From a virus, in the IMG/VR virus record IMGVR_UViG_3300010155_000012, positions 1 through 45,510 of that record: 45,510 nucleotides of DNA, one strand, 5' to 3'. Positions 2,284 to 21,449 of this stretch are shown piece by piece; the stretch's first letter is position 1, and every line of letters begins with the position of its first letter. A model generated the notes under the pieces. The model ran no database searches and had not been told where the DNA came from. It saw nothing but the letters and a program-made list of their open reading frames with translations. A program made the position numbers and the translations under genes.

Positions 2284-3459
2284 TTATCCCATAAAGATAG
2301 CTTTGCCATTAGGCATAGGAATAAATCTTAACTGTTTATTAATAAACTCAGATCTTCCAGCAGCTGTTTCCATAATCTTGTCATAAGTCATTGTCTCTAA
2401 CATTTCTTTCAAACTTGTCTTGAGGCCTTTTTGATCCTCTCTGCCGTTGGTGATTAGAGAGGTACCGTCTAGGGTCAAGGTTGCCCCGGGAATCGGAATA
2501 TTAGAAAATTTAGATCGAATTAATCCAAGCTGTTCCTTAGCTAGCGCAACAACATACTGACGTATCCACTGGCGACCTATGCTATTAACTCTTGAATAAA
2601 TTAGATTTCCAAAGGGAATATTCGATAGATTTGACACTCCTTGTATTGTCTCATCTTGATAAGATGGATTTAGGGGATCAGGATGAAATCTAACTCTAAC
2701 CCACAGCTTTCTAGGAGCAGCAGATGCCGGTGTCGGAAAAATTCTAACCTTTGTACCAATCATCTCATATGAGTAATTTGATCTTCTGACCCTGTTGGAG
2801 ATATCAAGCTGGCCAGCTCTTAGAATATCTTCAAAAACTGGGAGCACATAAAAGATTGTCTCCGGAGTGAAAGATTCAAAAGAGAATTCATTATTTAGAT
2901 AGTTGATTGCTGACGTCGTATCAAAAAATCTGTATGCTGCCTGCGGGCCAAAGTGAAATATCTCCATAATCCTAAGCTTGGTCTTTGGACTTGCATTGCT
3001 AGCTGAATTAAATAAAACTCCCCCTTGCTCATCCTTTAGCTCTGTATATACGTCATAATCCTGCCGACTTCTTTGTAATTGAATGCTTCCGGATACTGTA
3101 TTGTAAGAACCTCCTGTTCCAGCCTCCATGGAATATGGTTCAGCAAATCGTGTTAGATACTCAAGATTTTCTCTGGGAAATTTTTGTTCAGATCCAGAAA
3201 GAATACTACCCGTAGGCATCCCTAGAAATTGAATTAATTGAGACTTTGCCTGATACTGATTAAGAATGCTTCCGTATTCTAGAAAAGACTCCTCAAAATT
3301 TCCCCAAATTTGTTTCTTTGTTAGCTCAACAGATAATATATCATCGCCCAGCTTACGCTTGACGAACGTGATCATGTTATCGGCCTCTGTTTGAAATTCT
3401 GTGTCAGAATCAAAGAAGCCAAAAGGAGTGGGCTTGGTGGTATTTCCAAAGGTTGCCAT
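2284..3459 (-). CDS. gp13: Neck protein, T4 gp13-like
   Basis: A probable neck/head-completion protein of 391 residues from the ATG at 3459. Residues 33-62 (FVKRKLGDDILSVELTKKQI, then a helix ending EYGSI) match the N-terminal helix-strand-helix of T4 gp13 (ILRRLGAPIINVELT..QIYDC...LELYGEY). The C-terminal RQWIRQYVVALAKEQLGLIR, then PGATLTLDGTSLI and an acidic/basic helix, match the gp13 C-terminus (KRYATALAKELNGQI...GVTIDGQRLI). It is longer than T4 gp13 (about 309 aa) because of added sequence in the middle. An in-frame TTG at 3501 would add 14 residues (MVPIFINATRAFLS), but I prefer the ATG because relatives start close to this point. Neither start has a strong ribosome site. Confidence 0.85.
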   Translation of the reverse strand: MATFGNTTKPTPFGFFDSDTEFQTEADNMITFVKRKLGDDILSVELTKKQIWGNFEESFLEYGSILNQYQAKSQLIQFLGMPTGSILSGSEQKFPRENLEYLTRFAEPYSMEAGTGGSYNTVSGSIQLQRSRQDYDVYTELKDEQGGVLFNSASNASPKTKLRIMEIFHFGPQAAYRFFDTTSAINYLNNEFSFESFTPETIFYVLPVFEDILRAGQLDISNRVRRSNYSYEMIGTKVRIFPTPASAAPRKLWVRVRFHPDPLNPSYQDETIQGVSNLSNIPFGNLIYSRVNSIGRQWIRQYVVALAKEQLGLIRSKFSNIPIPGATLTLDGTSLITNGREDQKGLKTSLKEMLETMTYDKIMETAAGRSEFINKQLRFIPMPNGKAIFMG

Positions 3460-3614
3460 TGATAAAAACGCTCTTGTTGCATTAATAAATATAGGCACCA
3501 AGCTGAGAAGCTCAAAAAATCAAATTACATCTCTCGCTTCTTATCCGGGATGTTTTTATCTTTATGATCTGTATTTTTAATAAATTCTTTTTCGCTAAGC
3601 TCAAAAAACTTTTG

Positions 3615-4739
3615 TTATAGCCCACCTAGAGCAGTTATTGCAATTAAAGCAGGCAATCCGCTTCTCACATAGACACCTGAAAATAGGGTTTTTGACCTGC
3701 CTCCGACATATGAGATGGCCGATTCCATATGATTGCTTACACTTGGATCTCCAGCCATCTCCGGAGTGACAATCAAAAGAAGAACTCCTGTTTCCGGCTT
3801 TCCACGGGGAGCAGGACATGGGGATTTCTGTAGGCAGCCTTGAAAAATCTGCAACCCGAGATTTCCGCTTTGTGGATCTCTTATCGCTGTTGTTCCTAAA
3901 AACAGCCTGCCGTCAGTTCTCAAGCATCGTTCGAGGTCTTTTGTATCAAACGACTGAACCGGGGATACCTCACTCGCAAGCTTTAGAATTTGTGCCAGCA
4001 TCTTTGCAAATGCTGTGTTAGCTGCAGGATACATCGAGAGCATCCCGACTTTTCCTCTCAGCAGCTGTAGCTGGCGCTCATTATCAAGGACAATGTGGGG
4101 ATGATTTTTTACATCAACCAGGAGCAAGTCAGCATTTGTCTTAATTGTCGGATTAAGAAGCTCCTGGGCTGTCGGAACAGATACCACGTATACCACCTTT
4201 CCAGTTCCTTGAACAGATTTTAAATATCTCTCAAAAGCTGAGTGTAAGACGTGGGTGGCACTGCCTGTACCTCCGCCGCCGCCAGCCATGACAAATAACC
4301 AGTCAACTTTTCCAAACTTAGCCTTAAGAGTATCTTCCACAATAGTGGCATTATCCGAAAGCACCTCTTTGCCTAATTCGACATCTTTTCCAACACCATC
4401 AGCGCCCTCGAGGAGCAAAAAGTGATTTGAATCTACTCCGGCAGGCTGATCCTTTACGGTTGTATTGATTAAGATAGTTCGAGAAAACCCTAAATCTAAA
4501 AAGGCCTTAGCAAGCTTTCCGCCGCCCCCGCCGACGCCGACAAAGCCGCAGTTAATTGCAGAGGGCGCCGAGTTTTCTGGAAGAAGATCATCTTGAGAGC
4601 TTAGCGCGTCATCTCCGTAGTGGTCGACGAAGTCAAAATCATCTACTGCAGATATAGCAGTATCAAGCTCTCCAGCGTCAGAGCTTTTCTCTTGCTCTTG
4701 TTCATTTTGACTTTCTTGTAACTTTTCTTCTTTGCTCAC
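3615..4739 (-). CDS. FtsZ/tubulin-superfamily GTPase (phage-encoded)
   Basis: A 375-residue predicted filament-forming GTPase. Visible motifs, numbered from the GTG start: an N-terminal nucleotide loop INCGFVGVGGGGGKLAKAF (about 62-80, like the FtsZ GVGGGGGN loop); an ILINT strand (about 89-93, like FtsZ IAINTD); the tubulin signature AGGGGGTGSATHV (about 152-164, with Ala where FtsZ has the last Gly); and a T7-loop region SFDTKDLERCL (about 263-273). The two aspartates of the T7 loop have the same D-x-x-D spacing as the catalytic FtsZ NxDFAD loop. The first 60 residues are acidic and probably disordered. I chose the GTG because AAGGAGG lies 7 nt upstream. An in-frame ATG at 4814 would add 25 residues but has no ribosome site. 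Membership of the superfamily is well supported. Whether it is nearer FtsZ, TubZ or PhuZ cannot be settled by eye, and the role is unknown. Confidence 0.85.
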   Translation of the reverse strand: MSKEEKLQESQNEQEQEKSSDAGELDTAISAVDDFDFVDHYGDDALSSQDDLLPENSAPSAINCGFVGVGGGGGKLAKAFLDLGFSRTILINTTVKDQPAGVDSNHFLLLEGADGVGKDVELGKEVLSDNATIVEDTLKAKFGKVDWLFVMAGGGGGTGSATHVLHSAFERYLKSVQGTGKVVYVVSVPTAQELLNPTIKTNADLLLVDVKNHPHIVLDNERQLQLLRGKVGMLSMYPAANTAFAKMLAQILKLASEVSPVQSFDTKDLERCLRTDGRLFLGTTAIRDPQSGNLGLQIFQGCLQKSPCPAPRGKPETGVLLLIVTPEMAGDPSVSNHMESAISYVGGRSKTLFSGVYVRSGLPALIAITALGGL

Positions 4740-4897
4740 AGGGTGACCTCCTTGTTTTCTCTCTTCAGTAAGGGTTTTTCCACTTGAGCTTAATCCCCTG
4801 AGAGAGCTTGGCATCTTATCACAGAGAATAATATGATTAACTCCCCTGAAAGTAAATCAAGGGAGAAATTCATGTTTCAATTCAGTTACGCCAGATC

Positions 4898-5416
4898 TTA
4901 AACTTCAGCTGGATACGCACTAAACGCAAGAGATCCAGACTGAGCCTGAACAGCGAAGCCAAATCCATCACAATAGAGAGTCACAGAAGATCCGTGGGTG
5001 GTCGCGATGGCCAAAGCCCCGCCGTTTCCACCGACGCCGATTCCTCCGCTGCTCGCGACGCCAGCTCCGTAGAAAGAGGCTCTGGCAGAATCAGATCCGG
5101 TAAGATCATGCGCAGCACCGTTAGTTGTTACCGTGCCGGCAGCGTCTGTAGACAACGCCCTAACGGTAAATATTTCCCCCGGAACAGTGGAGGCAGCGGG
5201 TAGAGTAAGTGTAATTGCACTGGTCCCGCTGACTGTATAGACACCGCCAACTGAAAGGGAAGCATCAGCAGTCTTAACATTTTGAACTGGATTTCGAATT
5301 GTAGAGGAGCCAGTCAATATAAGTGTGCCACGAAACTTCGTCGTGTTTCGAATGTCTGTTCCTGACCCAGCTTCCTGAACTATTCCTCTTGTGTCATCAA
5401 ATATGATCTTTGGCAT
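4898..5416 (-). CDS. Beta-rich virion surface-type protein, unrecognised family
   Basis: A 172-residue protein rich in Gly, Ala, Ser and Thr with few charged residues. The central part (about 45-110) alternates short beta-type strands and turns: SLSVGGVYTVSGTSAITLTL, then PAASTVPGEIFTVRA, then TVTTNGAAHDLTGSDSA. This style is seen in phage head decoration and fibre proteins. A Gly-rich stretch (GVASSGGIGVGGNGGA) leads to a hydrophobic end (SVTLYCDGFGFAVQ). AAAGGAG lies 7 nt before the ATG. It sits between the sulfotransferase and the FtsZ-like gene, downstream of the capsid gene. A decoration or appendage role is inference from composition and position only. Confidence 0.6.
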   Translation of the reverse strand: MPKIIFDDTRGIVQEAGSGTDIRNTTKFRGTLILTGSSTIRNPVQNVKTADASLSVGGVYTVSGTSAITLTLPAASTVPGEIFTVRALSTDAAGTVTTNGAAHDLTGSDSARASFYGAGVASSGGIGVGGNGGALAIATTHGSSVTLYCDGFGFAVQAQSGSLAFSAYPAEV

Positions 5417-5549: not shown

Positions 5550-6440
5550 TTAATCTAAAAATCGGTAATCAAATTTTCTTATCCATGGGTCAAAAGCGGA
5601 AGCGACCATCTCTCTTGTGTCATTACTATAGTATTCTGCATAGTTAATTTTCTTTTTACGTTGCTTTGATTTTAATCTTGGCAGCTTTTCAGGTGAGATC
5701 TTCAGATGGTCACATGCTCTCTCATAGTCTAGTTGCAGATTTTCATATCTCATAGAAAAATCTAAAGGCGTGTCATCACCATAAAATTCAGAATTTATTC
5801 TAGAAAACCACTTTAAGATATTACAATTTTTATCAAGCCCGTAGGGTCCTTGAAAATCCGCATAGGTGCAAAGAAAACCCTGGAACTTTCGTCTAAGACT
5901 TTCAATATCGTCATCCTTTGCTGGAGCTAGATGAGATTTTACCTTTAAAGAGAAGTGACGCGGATTCTCTGTGGAGATAACCTCTCCATCACTTCTTAGA
6001 TGAACTGTAGGTGAGTGATAAAATGACCACCAGAAAAATGACACCATCACATCCCAGGGATTTCTAACTATGGTAAAGGTATAATACTCATTGAAAAGAT
6101 CTTTAAGTTCACTAATGTTTAAAACTTGAACAGGGGTTGTATGCATGTGAAATATCGGCTTTATTATTGAAACTTTATTTTTTTCAATATCTTTGTGAAT
6201 CAGGTGAGAGTATCCCGATTCGAGAAGATGCTTTACAGCGATATCTCCATCACATAATATCTCTATCTGATTGTTTCTAGTGGGATAATCAAAGTCACCT
6301 GATAGTTTTTCATCCCCGTGATCGGTTCCTGTTAAAATATCGCCTGGACCACAATGTTTTCCTAGAGACACCTCTACACTTGATCCGGCGACTTTCATGG
6401 GCTTAAAGAAAATAAATTTATTCTGGTGTGAAAGGATCAT
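5550..6440 (-). CDS. Sulfotransferase-family protein
   Basis: A 296-residue putative cytosolic sulfotransferase that would transfer sulfate from PAPS to a hydroxyl or amine acceptor. The N-terminal FIFFKPMKVAGSSVE (residues 9-23) is the 5'-phosphosulfate-binding loop, with the family pattern of a beta strand, K-x-(A/G)-(G/S)-S/T, and Lys at 16. YTFTIVRNPWDVMVSFFW (120-137) is the 3'-phosphate-binding segment, with Arg126 and Ser134 in the expected places. A later DFSMRYENLQLDYERACDHL is the usual helix of sulfotransferase-2/3 type proteins. No signal peptide or membrane segment is visible. The acceptor cannot be predicted. It lies just after the terminator that ends the capsid gene, so it needs its own promoter or readthrough. 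No clear ribosome site precedes the ATG. It looks like an accessory gene within the virion cluster. Confidence 0.82.
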   Translation of the reverse strand: MILSHQNKFIFFKPMKVAGSSVEVSLGKHCGPGDILTGTDHGDEKLSGDFDYPTRNNQIEILCDGDIAVKHLLESGYSHLIHKDIEKNKVSIIKPIFHMHTTPVQVLNISELKDLFNEYYTFTIVRNPWDVMVSFFWWSFYHSPTVHLRSDGEVISTENPRHFSLKVKSHLAPAKDDDIESLRRKFQGFLCTYADFQGPYGLDKNCNILKWFSRINSEFYGDDTPLDFSMRYENLQLDYERACDHLKISPEKLPRLKSKQRKKKINYAEYYSNDTREMVASAFDPWIRKFDYRFLD

Positions 6441-6530: not shown

Positions 6531-8459
6531 TTAGATGATGTTCAGATCCTGAACTGTCACGGTTCCGTAGAAGTCCGCACGAACCATCTTCTTGCCATAC
6601 CGAGTCATCACTCCCTTACGGGGTGTGAAGTCTTCGGGAGCAAAGATCGTCGGGGTGACGATGAGTGGAACGTAAGGTGCGTATACGTAACCTGTCTCGA
6701 GGTAGCTTCCGCCCTTGTACCCAACAAGTATCTTGTTGCGTGGGAAGTAGGGATCCTTGTAGACCGTGAAACGGTTACTTAGAGTTCCTACCGGAGCTGC
6801 GCCGAGAGTGAACGGATTGCTTACCTGTCCCTGACCGTCGAGGCTATAGTTCGGCTTATAAAGCACCGAAGCCTCGAAGATAGTAGCGACATCTGGACCG
6901 GTGACCACGAAGTTCGCGGATCCTCGCAGAGTCTTACGATGAATCTGGTTGGCGACGTCGATGACAGTCTCAACCAGAGTCTCGTACCACTCTCGAACTG
7001 TACCAGTGAACTGGGGTCCGATAGCGAGAGAGCTAGCAAGCGTCTGCGCGACGCCTGTCTCCTTGTTAACGAACTTACCAGGAGCACGTGACCAGTAGAG
7101 GTTAGCACCCCTGGCCTCGGTGAGGAGGTCGTTAAGGATCTCACGATCAATTTCCAGCGCAACCTGCTCAGAGAGAATCTGAGTGAGCTCTACCTCAGCA
7201 TCTAAGCTGTGGTAAGCATTCAAATCCTGAGCGAGTTCTGGGGACCAACGAGCACGGAGCTTACGGGTCACTGCGGTAACCGCAATGGACTCGATCTTAA
7301 TGTCGATCTCGGGAATGAACGGTGATGGGCTGGTCGCGTTAAAGTTCGACTCAAAAGAGGGAATGGTTAACGTGGAGCCATCAGTGCCGTCGACATTAAG
7401 CGATGGGCTGAGAACGAAAGAACCTGTGAGTCCTGAAGAACCCATGGCACCACCAGAAGAGTGATCTCCTCGAGCACCAGAAACAACGTTTAACCACACT
7501 GCGTTAGTCGTGTTTCGGGTAACGAACGGATTGGAGGTGAAGATGTTAGAAGTTGCATCAAACGTTCCAAGTTGGTTCAGACGCCGTACATTGAGAATGT
7601 TAGTTCCCGGCTGAATGCTGTTCGGCAATGCCTTATATCCCAACCCATCTCCCAGAAGAGAGAAGAGAGAGAACTGCTTGATCTGTGTAAGATCAGTAGC
7701 AGCAGGCACAGAGCTAAGGTTGATCAGAATAAACTGGAATCGACCGTCGCTAGCCTGACCACCTGCACCCGTTCCATCACCCACGATGAGAGAGGTAAGC
7801 TGGGGATCATATTGCAGCAATTTACCGTCAGTTCCCGTAGCATGTAACACATTGTTGTTACCAAGTGTGTTGCCAGCCCCATAGGCTCCGGATGTCGAGA
7901 GCGTGATGGTTGCAGAGCTAGTGTGAACCTGAGAATATCCGGTCCCAGCTAGATCATACTGACCACCTGTTGCCAGCGATCCAGAGCGAATGCCTCGGCC
8001 AACTGGAGCGCTGTAGATGGAATCACCCTTCGCATACGTTGCTGCATCAGCAGCGCCTGTTGCGAGGTTAGTGTTACCACCTACGTTAGAACCATACGTG
8101 TAATCCAGATAGAAGAGCAGTCCGGAAGGAAGACTCATCGGCTGAATGGACACTAGCTCGTTGGCGACGAGGCCGCCAAATACGCGTCTAACAATCGGAA
8201 AGGCTATGTTGGTGAATCCCTGAAGGTCACCGGATGTGGTTCCGGCGCCAGCGCCAGTTCCAATGGTGTTTTGCTCTCTAAGGAGCTGTGCAGCCTGATT
8301 TTCAAGTAGCATTGACATGCTTTCTCGATGCTGCCCCTCGAGGCCGCGAAGCAGACCTGTGCGGGCCCACTTCTCAACCAACCGCTGATTCTGCACACCC
8401 ATGTGACGCTGTCGAATCCCTTCGGTTAGCTGGTTAAGTGTAAAAGATTTTTTGCTCAT
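6531..8459 (-). CDS. gp23: Major capsid protein, T4 gp23-like
   Basis: The 642-residue precursor of the main head subunit. The diagnostic block is NIAFPIVRRVFGGLVANELV followed by SIQPMSLPSGLLFYLDYTYG (residues 84-122), matching T4 gp23 (AVMGMVRRAIPNLIAFDICG VQPMNSPTGQVFALRAVYG). The C-terminal end MTRYGKKMVRADFYGTV is also gp23-like. The middle (about 125-390) is a long Gly/Ser/Thr-rich insertion region, making it longer than T4 gp23 (521 aa). The N-terminal 62 residues resemble a delta domain removed by the gp21 protease. L60-R61-E62 and L51-L52-E53 fit the T4-type (I/L)-x-E cleavage rule. AAAAGGAG lies 8 nt before the ATG. The scaffold gene precedes it and a strong terminator follows, consistent with high expression. 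Confidence 0.95.
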   Translation of the reverse strand: MSKKSFTLNQLTEGIRQRHMGVQNQRLVEKWARTGLLRGLEGQHRESMSMLLENQAAQLLREQNTIGTGAGAGTTSGDLQGFTNIAFPIVRRVFGGLVANELVSIQPMSLPSGLLFYLDYTYGSNVGGNTNLATGAADAATYAKGDSIYSAPVGRGIRSGSLATGGQYDLAGTGYSQVHTSSATITLSTSGAYGAGNTLGNNNVLHATGTDGKLLQYDPQLTSLIVGDGTGAGGQASDGRFQFILINLSSVPAATDLTQIKQFSLFSLLGDGLGYKALPNSIQPGTNILNVRRLNQLGTFDATSNIFTSNPFVTRNTTNAVWLNVVSGARGDHSSGGAMGSSGLTGSFVLSPSLNVDGTDGSTLTIPSFESNFNATSPSPFIPEIDIKIESIAVTAVTRKLRARWSPELAQDLNAYHSLDAEVELTQILSEQVALEIDREILNDLLTEARGANLYWSRAPGKFVNKETGVAQTLASSLAIGPQFTGTVREWYETLVETVIDVANQIHRKTLRGSANFVVTGPDVATIFEASVLYKPNYSLDGQGQVSNPFTLGAAPVGTLSNRFTVYKDPYFPRNKILVGYKGGSYLETGYVYAPYVPLIVTPTIFAPEDFTPRKGVMTRYGKKMVRADFYGTVTVQDLNII

Positions 8460-18034: not shown

Positions 18035-18322
18035 TTATACCTCAAAACTTAGAGACATCTTTCTTCTATTACTTATTTCAGATAAAACTTCTTGTCTACC
18101 TGGCCTCCAGCCATTTTTATATTTTTCAAGATTCCCTTCAGCCCATTTTAAATTACATGTGTGACAGCATCCCAGCTCATCAAATGAACTGAAGTCACTG
18201 CTAGTTCTTAGTATAAACTTACAAATTTGACAAAATAAAGATTTTTTCTTTTTTTCTCCGTGAATCCTGATAAAAAATCCATACGGATGGAGTTTTAGAT
18301 CACTTTTTTTGTTTGCCGACAT
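18035..18322 (-). CDS. Small zinc-binding (C4-type) protein
   Basis: A 95-residue basic protein with a probable zinc site: CQICKF near the middle, then about 22 residues later CCHTC, giving a C-x2-C ... C-x2-C arrangement. The rest is polar, with Lys/Trp-rich segments (NLKWAEGN, KNGWRPGRQE). I chose the ATG at 18322 because AAAGGA lies 11 nt upstream; an upstream TTG would add 12 residues. It overlaps the end of the Mre11-Rad50-like gene by 23 bases. A nucleic-acid binding role is inferred from the zinc ribbon and the position in the replication/packaging junction; the partner is unknown. Confidence 0.62.
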   Translation of the reverse strand: MSANKKSDLKLHPYGFFIRIHGEKKKKSLFCQICKFILRTSSDFSSFDELGCCHTCNLKWAEGNLEKYKNGWRPGRQEVLSEISNRRKMSLSFEV

Positions 18323-21300
18323 AAACTCTTGAATCCTTTCCTTTTTTAGTGATGTCAATTACGTTATCAACCACATCCTTAACTGCGTCCACATGTGAAA
18401 TAATTAAAATATTTTTAAACCATTGTTTAAGAGAATCTAGAAGCCTGTTACAAGATTCAATATTCATTTCATCAAGAGATCCGAATCCCTCATCAATAAT
18501 CAGCAGGTCAGTCTTTGGAAGAGAAGAAATATTAATTAATGCTACTCGAATGGCCAGCGAAGAGATCATTTTTTCCATGCCCGAAGCTAACTCGATCACC
18601 CTTCTAGAATCTCCATAATTAATGTAGATATCCATTGCGTTAGAGTTAACATCAGCTTCGAGCTCAACAGTGAAGCCCACAGTATTTTGAAGAATCTTAG
18701 CAATTTCAGAATTAATGGCAGGTAAGTAAGACATGATTATCTGCAAGGGAATTCCCTTTTTTGAAACTGCCTGTAAAAATAAATTATGGGAAGTCCACTG
18801 ATCCTTTAAAAATTGATATTTTTTTCTCTCTTCTTTGATTGTTTTGCGATCGCTTTTTAATTTTCCAATATTCTGAGCCAGTGATATTCTCTGAGCGTCA
18901 AGAGAGTTAATCTCATTGTGATAATCAAATAGCTTTTCTTTTATCAAATTTAAACTCTCATCTCTATCATCCCCCTGATAATTTTTTTTCATTTCTTCAA
19001 GCATCTTTTTAGCAGACTGAAGCTGGGTGATTATACCGAGAAGAGTAGATTCAGCTTCCCTTGTTTGTGATCTTAGCTGAATATTTTTCAGATTTATCTC
19101 TGATTCCTCCTGTAGTAGATGATTATACTTCTCTAGTTTTTCCTGTAAGTTCTCTGACTTTAACACGCTTAGGGCACTTTGTGATGCCTCTACTTGATCT
19201 AGCATCTCCTCAGCTTTTATCTTTTGAGCAGATACCCTTTTTCTATTTTCATGTGAGTCTTTGATAAACTTACAAGCGGGAAATAGATCACCGCAAGGGA
19301 CCTCTTTGAGTTTTTTTATAGAGGTCTCTTGATTGACTAAGATTGTAATTTCCCTCTCATGTTCACTTCTAATTTTAATTAAGCTTTTTTCAATTTGATG
19401 TTGAGACTCTAGTCTTTCCTTTAATTGATCTATGGGAAATTGATTTTTAATATTTAGTATTTTTTGTAATTTTTCTATCTGCTCAAGTTCTTGATCTTTT
19501 CGATTTTTTATTTCTAGCCTTTGATGTTTGATATTTTTAGAAAGAGAATCAATTAAAGATCCCTGCCGTGTTAAGTCAGAGGAGGTGATTACGTCAGAAT
19601 TTTCAAATGATGCAATTTCAAGCTGAATTTTATTGGCAGCAAGGCGTTTGGTGTTAATAAGGGTATCAAATCTTCTTAGTTTTGCTTGTAAGTTTTTAAT
19701 TCTACGACGAATGTCATATACAGCAACATCCCAGTCTCTGTCTGGAACGCTTTTCATTTGTGATCTAATATCTGATATCTCTTCCTTGGCAACAGTCATC
19801 ATTTGATCAAAGATATTGAGATCCAAAAAATTAGTCAAAATTAATTTTCGCTGTGTGGCACGCTCTTTAATAAAGGAGTTCATTCCGCCCTGAGAAGAAA
19901 GTGACGTCATCAAGAAATCCTCAGCTGTTCCCACTTTTTTTCTCAACACCTTTTCAGTCTCTCTTCTTTGCTCTTCAGTAAGATCTCTTATTACGTTCCC
20001 GTTTCCGTCAATCTCATAGAAGTTTAAGTGTGTGATAGCATTTACTTTTCCCTGTCTGCTTTCATGCTTAACGGATTGTCTCTCTGCTCTATAGTTTTTT
20101 CCATTGATATTTAGGTCAATCTCAGTTTTACAATGACCCTTTCTTGTATTGATAATGTGTAAATTTTTAATGGGTCCTCTATCAGTTGTATTAAAGAGAC
20201 CATACATCAATGTTCCCACAATAGAAGACTTTCCACATCGATTCGGACCAAATATTCCGCTAATTCCTGACATTGTCGAGAAATCAATTTGATTATTTTT
20301 CCCATATGCAAACGTATTATCAAATTTTAAATTTTTAATTGACCACTTGATGTTTCTTGGGCTTTCATTAAATCTTGATATATGGGAAAAATATTTCTTA
20401 ATTAGATCTTCAAGCTGTCCCCAGTCCTTTTTTGATATATCTGAATCCTTATAAAATTTTCTCATAAGACCGATGTGGGTATTAAGATCCCTAAGATTTT
20501 CTTTAAAGATCGAATCTTTTCCAAGATTAATTGTAGATGAGTCAATTGACTCATCAATTTTAAAAACCACTTCGTGAGACTTCTTTTCATGCTTGAGAAC
20601 TGAATGCAGATGAACGATGTCTGCCTGGGGAATCGAAGAATCTGATCGAATTCTGTACCTTGCACCCGGGGGGATATCCTCCACCTGAAACAACGTCTCC
20701 TTGGCGGAATCCTTCCAATCAACTGTAATAAAAGGCCTACTGTGTTTGATCTCATAAAACGTGCTGGTAAACGATTGTTTGTTCTCAATCTCCCAGAATA
20801 AAAATCCTTTTCCTACAGCCTCACCATAGTTCTGCTGGATTGTTGATCCGGGATAAGCCATCGTTTTCTTATCATCTAAAAATTGACATGTGTGGATATC
20901 ACCCAATAGTGTAAAGTCATAATCATCAAAAAATTCAGTTAAAATCTCTCCTTCAATTGACCAGTCTGAGTCTGTCTTAGATCCCCAAACCGCTCCGTGA
21001 AACAAGGCAATATTGATATCTCCCTGGACGGGTTTAACAGATTTCCACCCTTCCTCATCAAAACATGAAAATACACACCAGTTATATCCTGGGATACCCG
21101 TTGGATACGTTCCTGATTTCTTGTAGAGGTGCAGCCTGGGATTATCAAGTGCACTAATTATTGGGCTAATCGCATCTTGACGATCTTGATTTAAAATAAG
21201 ACCATCATGATTTCCTAAAATAATATGAGTGGGAGCCACCTCTGCGAGAGATGTAAACCACCACGAAAGCACGTCAATTAGCTCAGGTGAGATTCCTTGA

Positions 21301-21449
21301 GTCTTGGAGTGAACAATATCTCCTCCGACATAGATTACATCTGGATTAAGATCCTGAGCCTGCTTAAAAAATCTTTCAAAAGATTCTCGATATTCATCAT
21401 GTCGAGACATCCCTCTCCAGTGGATATCAGCAATGTGAATAATTTTCAT
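18300..21449 (-). CDS. Single-chain Mre11-Rad50 (SbcD-SbcC, T4 gp47-gp46) recombination nuclease
   Basis: A 1049-residue fusion of two proteins that are separate in T4. The N-terminal half is a metallophosphoesterase nuclease with all expected motifs: ADIH (7-10), GGD (42-44), GNHD (79-82), FHG (His151) and GDIH (183-186). The C-terminal half is an SMC-like ATPase: Walker A GPNRCGKSS (401-409), a Q-loop-like SSQGGM (517-522), two long coiled-coil arms (about 550-710 and 735-880), an apex with Cys718 and Cys725 (PCGDLFPACKF), the signature LASGMEKM (953-960), Walker B LLIIDE (981-986), D-loop GSLD and switch His1018. It would process DNA ends for recombination-dependent replication and may resect branched DNA before packaging. 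The reading frame is continuous, without frameshift. The ribosome site is weak. Confidence 0.93.
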   Translation of the reverse strand: MKIIHIADIHWRGMSRHDEYRESFERFFKQAQDLNPDVIYVGGDIVHSKTQGISPELIDVLSWWFTSLAEVAPTHIILGNHDGLILNQDRQDAISPIISALDNPRLHLYKKSGTYPTGIPGYNWCVFSCFDEEGWKSVKPVQGDINIALFHGAVWGSKTDSDWSIEGEILTEFFDDYDFTLLGDIHTCQFLDDKKTMAYPGSTIQQNYGEAVGKGFLFWEIENKQSFTSTFYEIKHSRPFITVDWKDSAKETLFQVEDIPPGARYRIRSDSSIPQADIVHLHSVLKHEKKSHEVVFKIDESIDSSTINLGKDSIFKENLRDLNTHIGLMRKFYKDSDISKKDWGQLEDLIKKYFSHISRFNESPRNIKWSIKNLKFDNTFAYGKNNQIDFSTMSGISGIFGPNRCGKSSIVGTLMYGLFNTTDRGPIKNLHIINTRKGHCKTEIDLNINGKNYRAERQSVKHESRQGKVNAITHLNFYEIDGNGNVIRDLTEEQRRETEKVLRKKVGTAEDFLMTSLSSQGGMNSFIKERATQRKLILTNFLDLNIFDQMMTVAKEEISDIRSQMKSVPDRDWDVAVYDIRRRIKNLQAKLRRFDTLINTKRLAANKIQLEIASFENSDVITSSDLTRQGSLIDSLSKNIKHQRLEIKNRKDQELEQIEKLQKILNIKNQFPIDQLKERLESQHQIEKSLIKIRSEHEREITILVNQETSIKKLKEVPCGDLFPACKFIKDSHENRKRVSAQKIKAEEMLDQVEASQSALSVLKSENLQEKLEKYNHLLQEESEINLKNIQLRSQTREAESTLLGIITQLQSAKKMLEEMKKNYQGDDRDESLNLIKEKLFDYHNEINSLDAQRISLAQNIGKLKSDRKTIKEERKKYQFLKDQWTSHNLFLQAVSKKGIPLQIIMSYLPAINSEIAKILQNTVGFTVELEADVNSNAMDIYINYGDSRRVIELASGMEKMISSLAIRVALINISSLPKTDLLIIDEGFGSLDEMNIESCNRLLDSLKQWFKNILIISHVDAVKDVVDNVIDITKKGKDSRVYVGKQKK

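Follow-up and report, generated by a model that had tools for sequence, protein, structure and literature searches.

The window analyzed here, the whole stretch of 45,510 nucleotides, encodes homologues of gp17, gp20, gp21, gp23 and gp13 in T4-like order, which bears out the assignment to a T4-type phage made in an earlier, sequence-only reading of this DNA, and Flavobacterium phage immuto has the same gene order. Between the major capsid and head-tail adaptor genes lies a gene for a tubulin/FtsZ-type GTPase on the minus strand, and the order at the locus is gp23, a sulfotransferase-type gene and a beta-rich protein gene, tubulin, gp13, gp14 and gp15. The features of the locus are as follows.

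3615 to 4739, minus strand: tubulin/FtsZ-type GTPase gene, 374 amino acids from a GTG (the likely form), identified by core fold and profile matches
3615 to 4814, minus strand: ATG-initiated version of the tubulin gene, 399 amino acids
4747 to 4753, minus strand: AAGGAGG ribosome-binding site, 7 nucleotides before the GTG at 4739, read from the sequence
4596 to 4739, minus strand: acidic N-terminal arm, predicted to be disordered (residues 1-48 of the GTG version, pLDDT < 50)
4629 to 4640, minus strand: DFDF core of the arm motif D-F-[DG]-F-x3-Y, from the family alignment
4515 to 4538, minus strand: T1 nucleotide loop GVGGGGGK (residues 93-100 of the ATG version)
4260 to 4277, minus strand: T4 loop with the tubulin signature GGGTGS (residues 180-185 of the ATG version)
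3936 to 3947, minus strand: T7 loop D-T-K-D (residues 290-293 of the ATG version)
6531 to 8459, minus strand: gp23-type major capsid protein (PHROG 138, E=2e-72), which marks a T4-type phage
2284 to 3501, minus strand: gp13-type head-tail adaptor (PHROG 211, E=2.8e-11), the downstream neighbor
4898 to 5416, minus strand: small beta-rich protein, the upstream neighbor, from a cluster of only 3 members and not a conserved partner

Beta-rich proteins starting with MPK are encoded between gp23 and tubulin both in the window (4898-5416) and at locus L091 (8960-9765, two tandem related copies), and are possibly capsid decoration or head fiber proteins. The sulfotransferase-type gene (5550-6440; PHROG galactose-3-O-sulfotransferase, E=1.2e-12) belongs to a 12-member cluster in related loci, and its product may modify sugars on the surface of virion or host. 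Elsewhere in the window (18300-21449), gp46 and gp47 (SbcC/SbcD type) appear fused into a product of 1049 residues with N-terminal metallophosphoesterase matches and an SbcC-like match over 282-1044.

The sequence-only reading had placed the tubulin gene correctly at 3615-4814. The AAGGAGG site that it described is present at 4753-4747; since this site precedes the in-frame GTG at 4739 and not the ATG at 4814, the 374-residue form is the likely protein. The same GTG start and ribosome-binding site were called in L002 and L003, two contigs that are identical, and in the shortest relatives the protein starts right at MSDFDF.

The motifs GVGGGGG, INT, GGGTGS and DTKD are all present, as had been described, and the resemblance to tubulins is far beyond chance. 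The single protein matched the Pfam Tubulin model with 27.1 bits (E=5.9e-6, below the family cut-off of 33) and the FtsZ model TIGR00065 with 30.3 bits (E=2.7e-7) against a curated cut-off of 295.2. Single-sequence matches in the PDB were to CetZ (3zid, 8.8e-7) and FtsZ (1e-5), and a family profile of 19 sequences matched FtsZs and CetZ of the PDB at about 1e-10. The AlphaFold model, in which residues 49-374 are modeled confidently and residues 1-48 are disordered (pLDDT above 90 at 286 of the 374 residues), has the full two-domain tubulin fold consisting of a GTPase domain, H7 and an activation domain. Structure comparison by VIA-align gave Z scores of 28-32 over about 287-308 residues for CetZ, TubZ and FtsZ overall, with CetZ2 (4b45, Z 32.0 over 290 residues) and TubZ (4ei7, Z 31.8 over 308) tied ahead of CetZ 3zid (Z 30.2) and FtsZ (Z 28.9 over 293), and a Foldseek search of the model against the PDB agreed (E about 1e-19). 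The best viral structure match (BFVD, E=3e-22) was A0A6J5RW92, named FtsZ Cell division GTPase and derived from an uncultured Caudovirales phage, which has 452 residues, is 19% identical and belongs to a different sequence family. Both tubulin domains are found in the model and its top matches are CetZ, TubZ and FtsZ structures, not an unrelated Rossmann fold; as judged from profiles and predicted structure, the gene product is a tubulin/FtsZ-fold protein, as originally proposed.

Residue conservation was counted in 79 non-redundant family members, and in 77 of them for the arm motif. The T1, T3, T4, T6 and T7 motifs align with those of FtsZ, the T1 loop and GGGTGS are conserved across the 79 members, and the T7 acids D290 and D293 are invariant (79/79), in keeping with the earlier suggestion that the T7 loop would be competent for hydrolysis. 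The FtsZ asparagine after the T1 glycines is replaced by lysine, as in CetZ. Twelve pairs of relatives gave dN/dS values of 0.02-0.08, which corresponds to purifying selection. Nothing points to a protein that is degenerate or only structural.

In the structure alignment of the AlphaFold model, the core stops 2 residues past the last strand, at about FtsZ residue 315, so that the protein is without a C-terminal tail like those of PhuZ, TubZ and FtsZ, and the relatives also end within a few residues of the same point. The acidic N-terminal arm, put at 60 residues in the sequence-only reading, is indeed unlike FtsZ; its predicted disordered part is 48 residues long in the window protein, its length varies among relatives and only its motif is conserved. 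Within D-F-[DG]-F-x3-Y, each main position is kept in about 90% or more of the members (D 73/77, F 73/77, D or G 77/77, F 70/77, and Y 68/77 with F in 8 at the last position), and the motif may serve in docking, a role assigned to the arm because there is no C-terminal tail to fill it.

The known phage tubulins are PhuZ in nucleus-forming phages and TubZ in plasmid-like phages. In a superfamily tree FtsZ, PhuZ and TubZ each grouped together and the new family, on long branches, formed a group of its own (87% SH-aLRT without the row of L010, all groups then being separate), in agreement with the earlier view that it is distinct from PhuZ and TubZ. The position of L010 beside PhuZ with zero branch length was discarded, L010 being N-terminally truncated. 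The PhuZ clade was supported at 100/100 without the new family and sat on a very long branch, and CetZ, represented by one sequence on a branch of 2.7, had no supported sister relation.

Like PhuZ of the phiKZ-like, chimallin-encoding phages (PHROG 4733, a weak profile match to the window protein at E=4e-4), the new tubulin is phage-encoded and single-copy, has the T7-loop acids and occurs in large myovirus-type genomes. Unlike the PhuZ phages, its carriers have T4-type head genes; moreover, its T1 and T4 loops are closer to FtsZ and CetZ than to PhuZ. A C-terminal tail with an acidic knuckle runs along the PhuZ protofilament (PMC3678025), and the new tubulin is without this tail on which PhuZ polymerization depends. 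Chimallin was found in 0 of 18 carrier records, which may be incomplete, by the same model that finds it in 6 of 6 PhuZ phages. CetZ, an archaeal tubulin-like shape protein, gave the best structure match, tied with TubZ, and the best single-sequence PDB match, and shares GGGTGS and the lysine after the T1 glycines, but the identity is 20-25% and the new protein is bacteriophage-borne and has the N-terminal arm. TubZ/RepX, the segregation tubulins of plasmids and phage c-st, match nearly as well as CetZ in structure but have the C-terminal tail and a separate branch, and FtsZ shares the fold and the GTP-site motifs, whereas the new family lies far below the curated FtsZ cut-off and has the N-terminal arm instead of a C-terminal linker and conserved peptide. 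On these sequence comparisons the family is neither PhuZ, TubZ nor FtsZ and would be a third phage tubulin family. No report of a tubulin from a T4-type phage was found in the literature searched, and we claim no priority.

A scan of IMG/VR with the family alignment yielded 378 relatives, of which the best 80 were listed, on contigs of up to 284 kb, and each of 20 long carrier records has a single tubulin copy. A search of 50,697 phage records gave no relative, and one of plasmids gave no close relative, its sole match being a Paenibacillus protein (E=0.04, 27% identity). Among isolated phages, those closest in terminase and capsid are the Flavobacterium phages immuto and Microcystis phage Mel-JY01 (terminase identity 41-42%); they lack the tubulin, as do several large relatives (141, 134, 237 and 175 kb), and its function is thus dispensable in the wider phage group. 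In a genome collection, five carrier contigs were binned in MAGs, of which four are Flavobacteriales and one is Halobacteriovorax. Because viral contigs are often misbinned in MAGs, flavobacterial hosts are a lead only.

In the terminase tree, 19 carriers fell into two deep clades within a single uncultured T4-type group, where non-carriers are interspersed among them (five changes); the non-carriers may be incomplete and the carriers had been found via the tubulin itself. The tubulin tree divides on the same two sides, and this match between the trees argues for long retention and largely vertical inheritance. The distribution fits an old gene, mainly inherited within the phage group and lost several times, and repeated transfer inside the group is a possible alternative history.

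The tubulin occurs in at least five gene contexts among relatives, which rules out a fixed genome location. By our labels, 30 of 79 members lie among head genes as in the window and 6 next to a portal/protease block; in 11 the neighbors are gp46/47, in 13 the gene stands upstream of PhoH, 7 have a GroEL-like gene and PhoH nearby, and 12 fall elsewhere. Two sister phages (G004 and G002) have it in different contexts. The virion-cluster location noted earlier therefore holds for the gp23-gp13 slot of the window and is not conserved in the family, and with at least five contexts the late-cluster position is no guide to function, so that the link to the virion drawn from position falls away. Strong late expression had also been proposed; given the variable context, a ribosome-binding site that is uninformative on timing, and a T4-type late promoter (TATAAATA) that is not enriched upstream of tubulin (0 observed vs 1.75 expected, n=75) and was seen 0 times upstream of 21 gp23 genes, no expression claim is possible.

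Where tubulin lies close to PhoH or the GroEL-like gene, a phage tmRNA gene is found directly upstream of it on the same strand (L006 7562-7960, L007 7515-7829, L054 9591-9904, L056 9555-9921, L061 4969-5349 and L064 9466-9846, and also L097, L117, L119, L126 and L131), with tags such as ANDNVEYDYALAA. The tmRNA is adjacent in many carriers, yet it is widespread in this phage group and present in three tubulin-negative relatives, so that no functional partnership is read into the adjacency. A diverged GroEL-like protein of 462 amino acids (E=1.5e-15) is encoded near tubulin at L101 (6556-7941). At L016 (7896-8216), a shortened extra tubulin start, which reaches to the glycine loop and continues into an unrelated fused tail, lies immediately upstream of the intact gene; this is a recombination scar or an assembly artefact, and the interrupted match reflects a truncated tandem copy, not an intron or split gene. 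A phyletic profile of seven tubulin-positive and four tubulin-negative genomes brought up no obligate partner: no family but the tubulin itself was specific to the positive genomes, and spanin-like, secreted and epimerase families were set aside as divergent or generic matches.

We consider it reasonably probable that the protein forms a GTP-driven filament that positions phage cargo and is docked to it by the arm. Protofilaments would form by head-to-tail self-assembly of subunits, in which each T7 loop presumably completes the GTPase site of the next subunit. In a cell infected by a large T4-type phage, the filaments would move or position capsids, phage DNA or sites of replication. Cargo would be attached via a partner bound at the conserved D-F-[DG]-F motif of the disordered arm. 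The cargo-positioning part is drawn by analogy to PhuZ, filaments of which center the phage nucleus and carry capsids (PMC13282480).

Interference with host division, in which an FtsZ-like phage protein would keep infected cells from dividing by poisoning or sequestering the FtsZ ring of the host or the binding partners of that ring, is unlikely. FtsZ is a common phage target and the core is FtsZ-like with an intact GTP site, but it shares only about 17-20% identity with solved FtsZs and long branches separate the family from FtsZs, including those of the MAGs holding carrier contigs, which makes co-polymerization with host FtsZ unlikely. A decoy, moreover, would need neither an invariant T7 loop nor the full length and self-consistency of this GTPase family, and the protein has no FtsZ C-terminal peptide with which to compete for FtsA or ZipA. 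That a virion or morphogenesis protein, such as a scaffold or capsid component, has retained the tubulin fold appears quite improbable: the slot between gp23 and gp13 in the window and related contigs, and the portal and protease genes beside it in another context, would suit such a role, but other members lie beside gp46/47, the tmRNA, PhoH or the GroEL-like gene, and invariant catalytic residues are unexpected for a purely structural protein. TubZ-like segregation or maintenance of phage DNA in a plasmid-like state is very improbable in spite of the equally good structure match to TubZ (Z 31.8), since in the window the neighbors of the tubulin are the beta-rich protein and gp13 with no adjacent TubR-like gene, repeats are coincidental with no iterated centromere-like ones, the structural genes are those of a virulent T4-type phage, and the family is set apart from plasmid TubZs in the tree and by its missing TubZ-type tail.

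Cargo positioning by a filament, one of the possible roles named in the sequence-only reading, is our favored reading. A broader proposal, which we put forward tentatively and at slightly less than even chances, is that this third tubulin lineage, inherited for the most part vertically in a widespread uncultured clade of large T4-type phages, builds a cytoskeleton organizing infection without a chimallin-type nucleus, in which docking of cargo has moved from a C-terminal tail to the N-terminal arm motif.

The family turned up hundreds of times among environmental sequences and is absent from every isolate record searched. Uncultured large T4-type phages carry their own intact-looking tubulin, and the viral cytoskeleton may extend well beyond nucleus-forming phages. 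If this is true, cytoskeletal organization of infection would have arisen or persisted outside the nucleus system, and it becomes testable whether filament positioning of capsids or DNA needs a nucleus at all. The protein would also offer a tail-less minimal tubulin for studies of filament dynamics.
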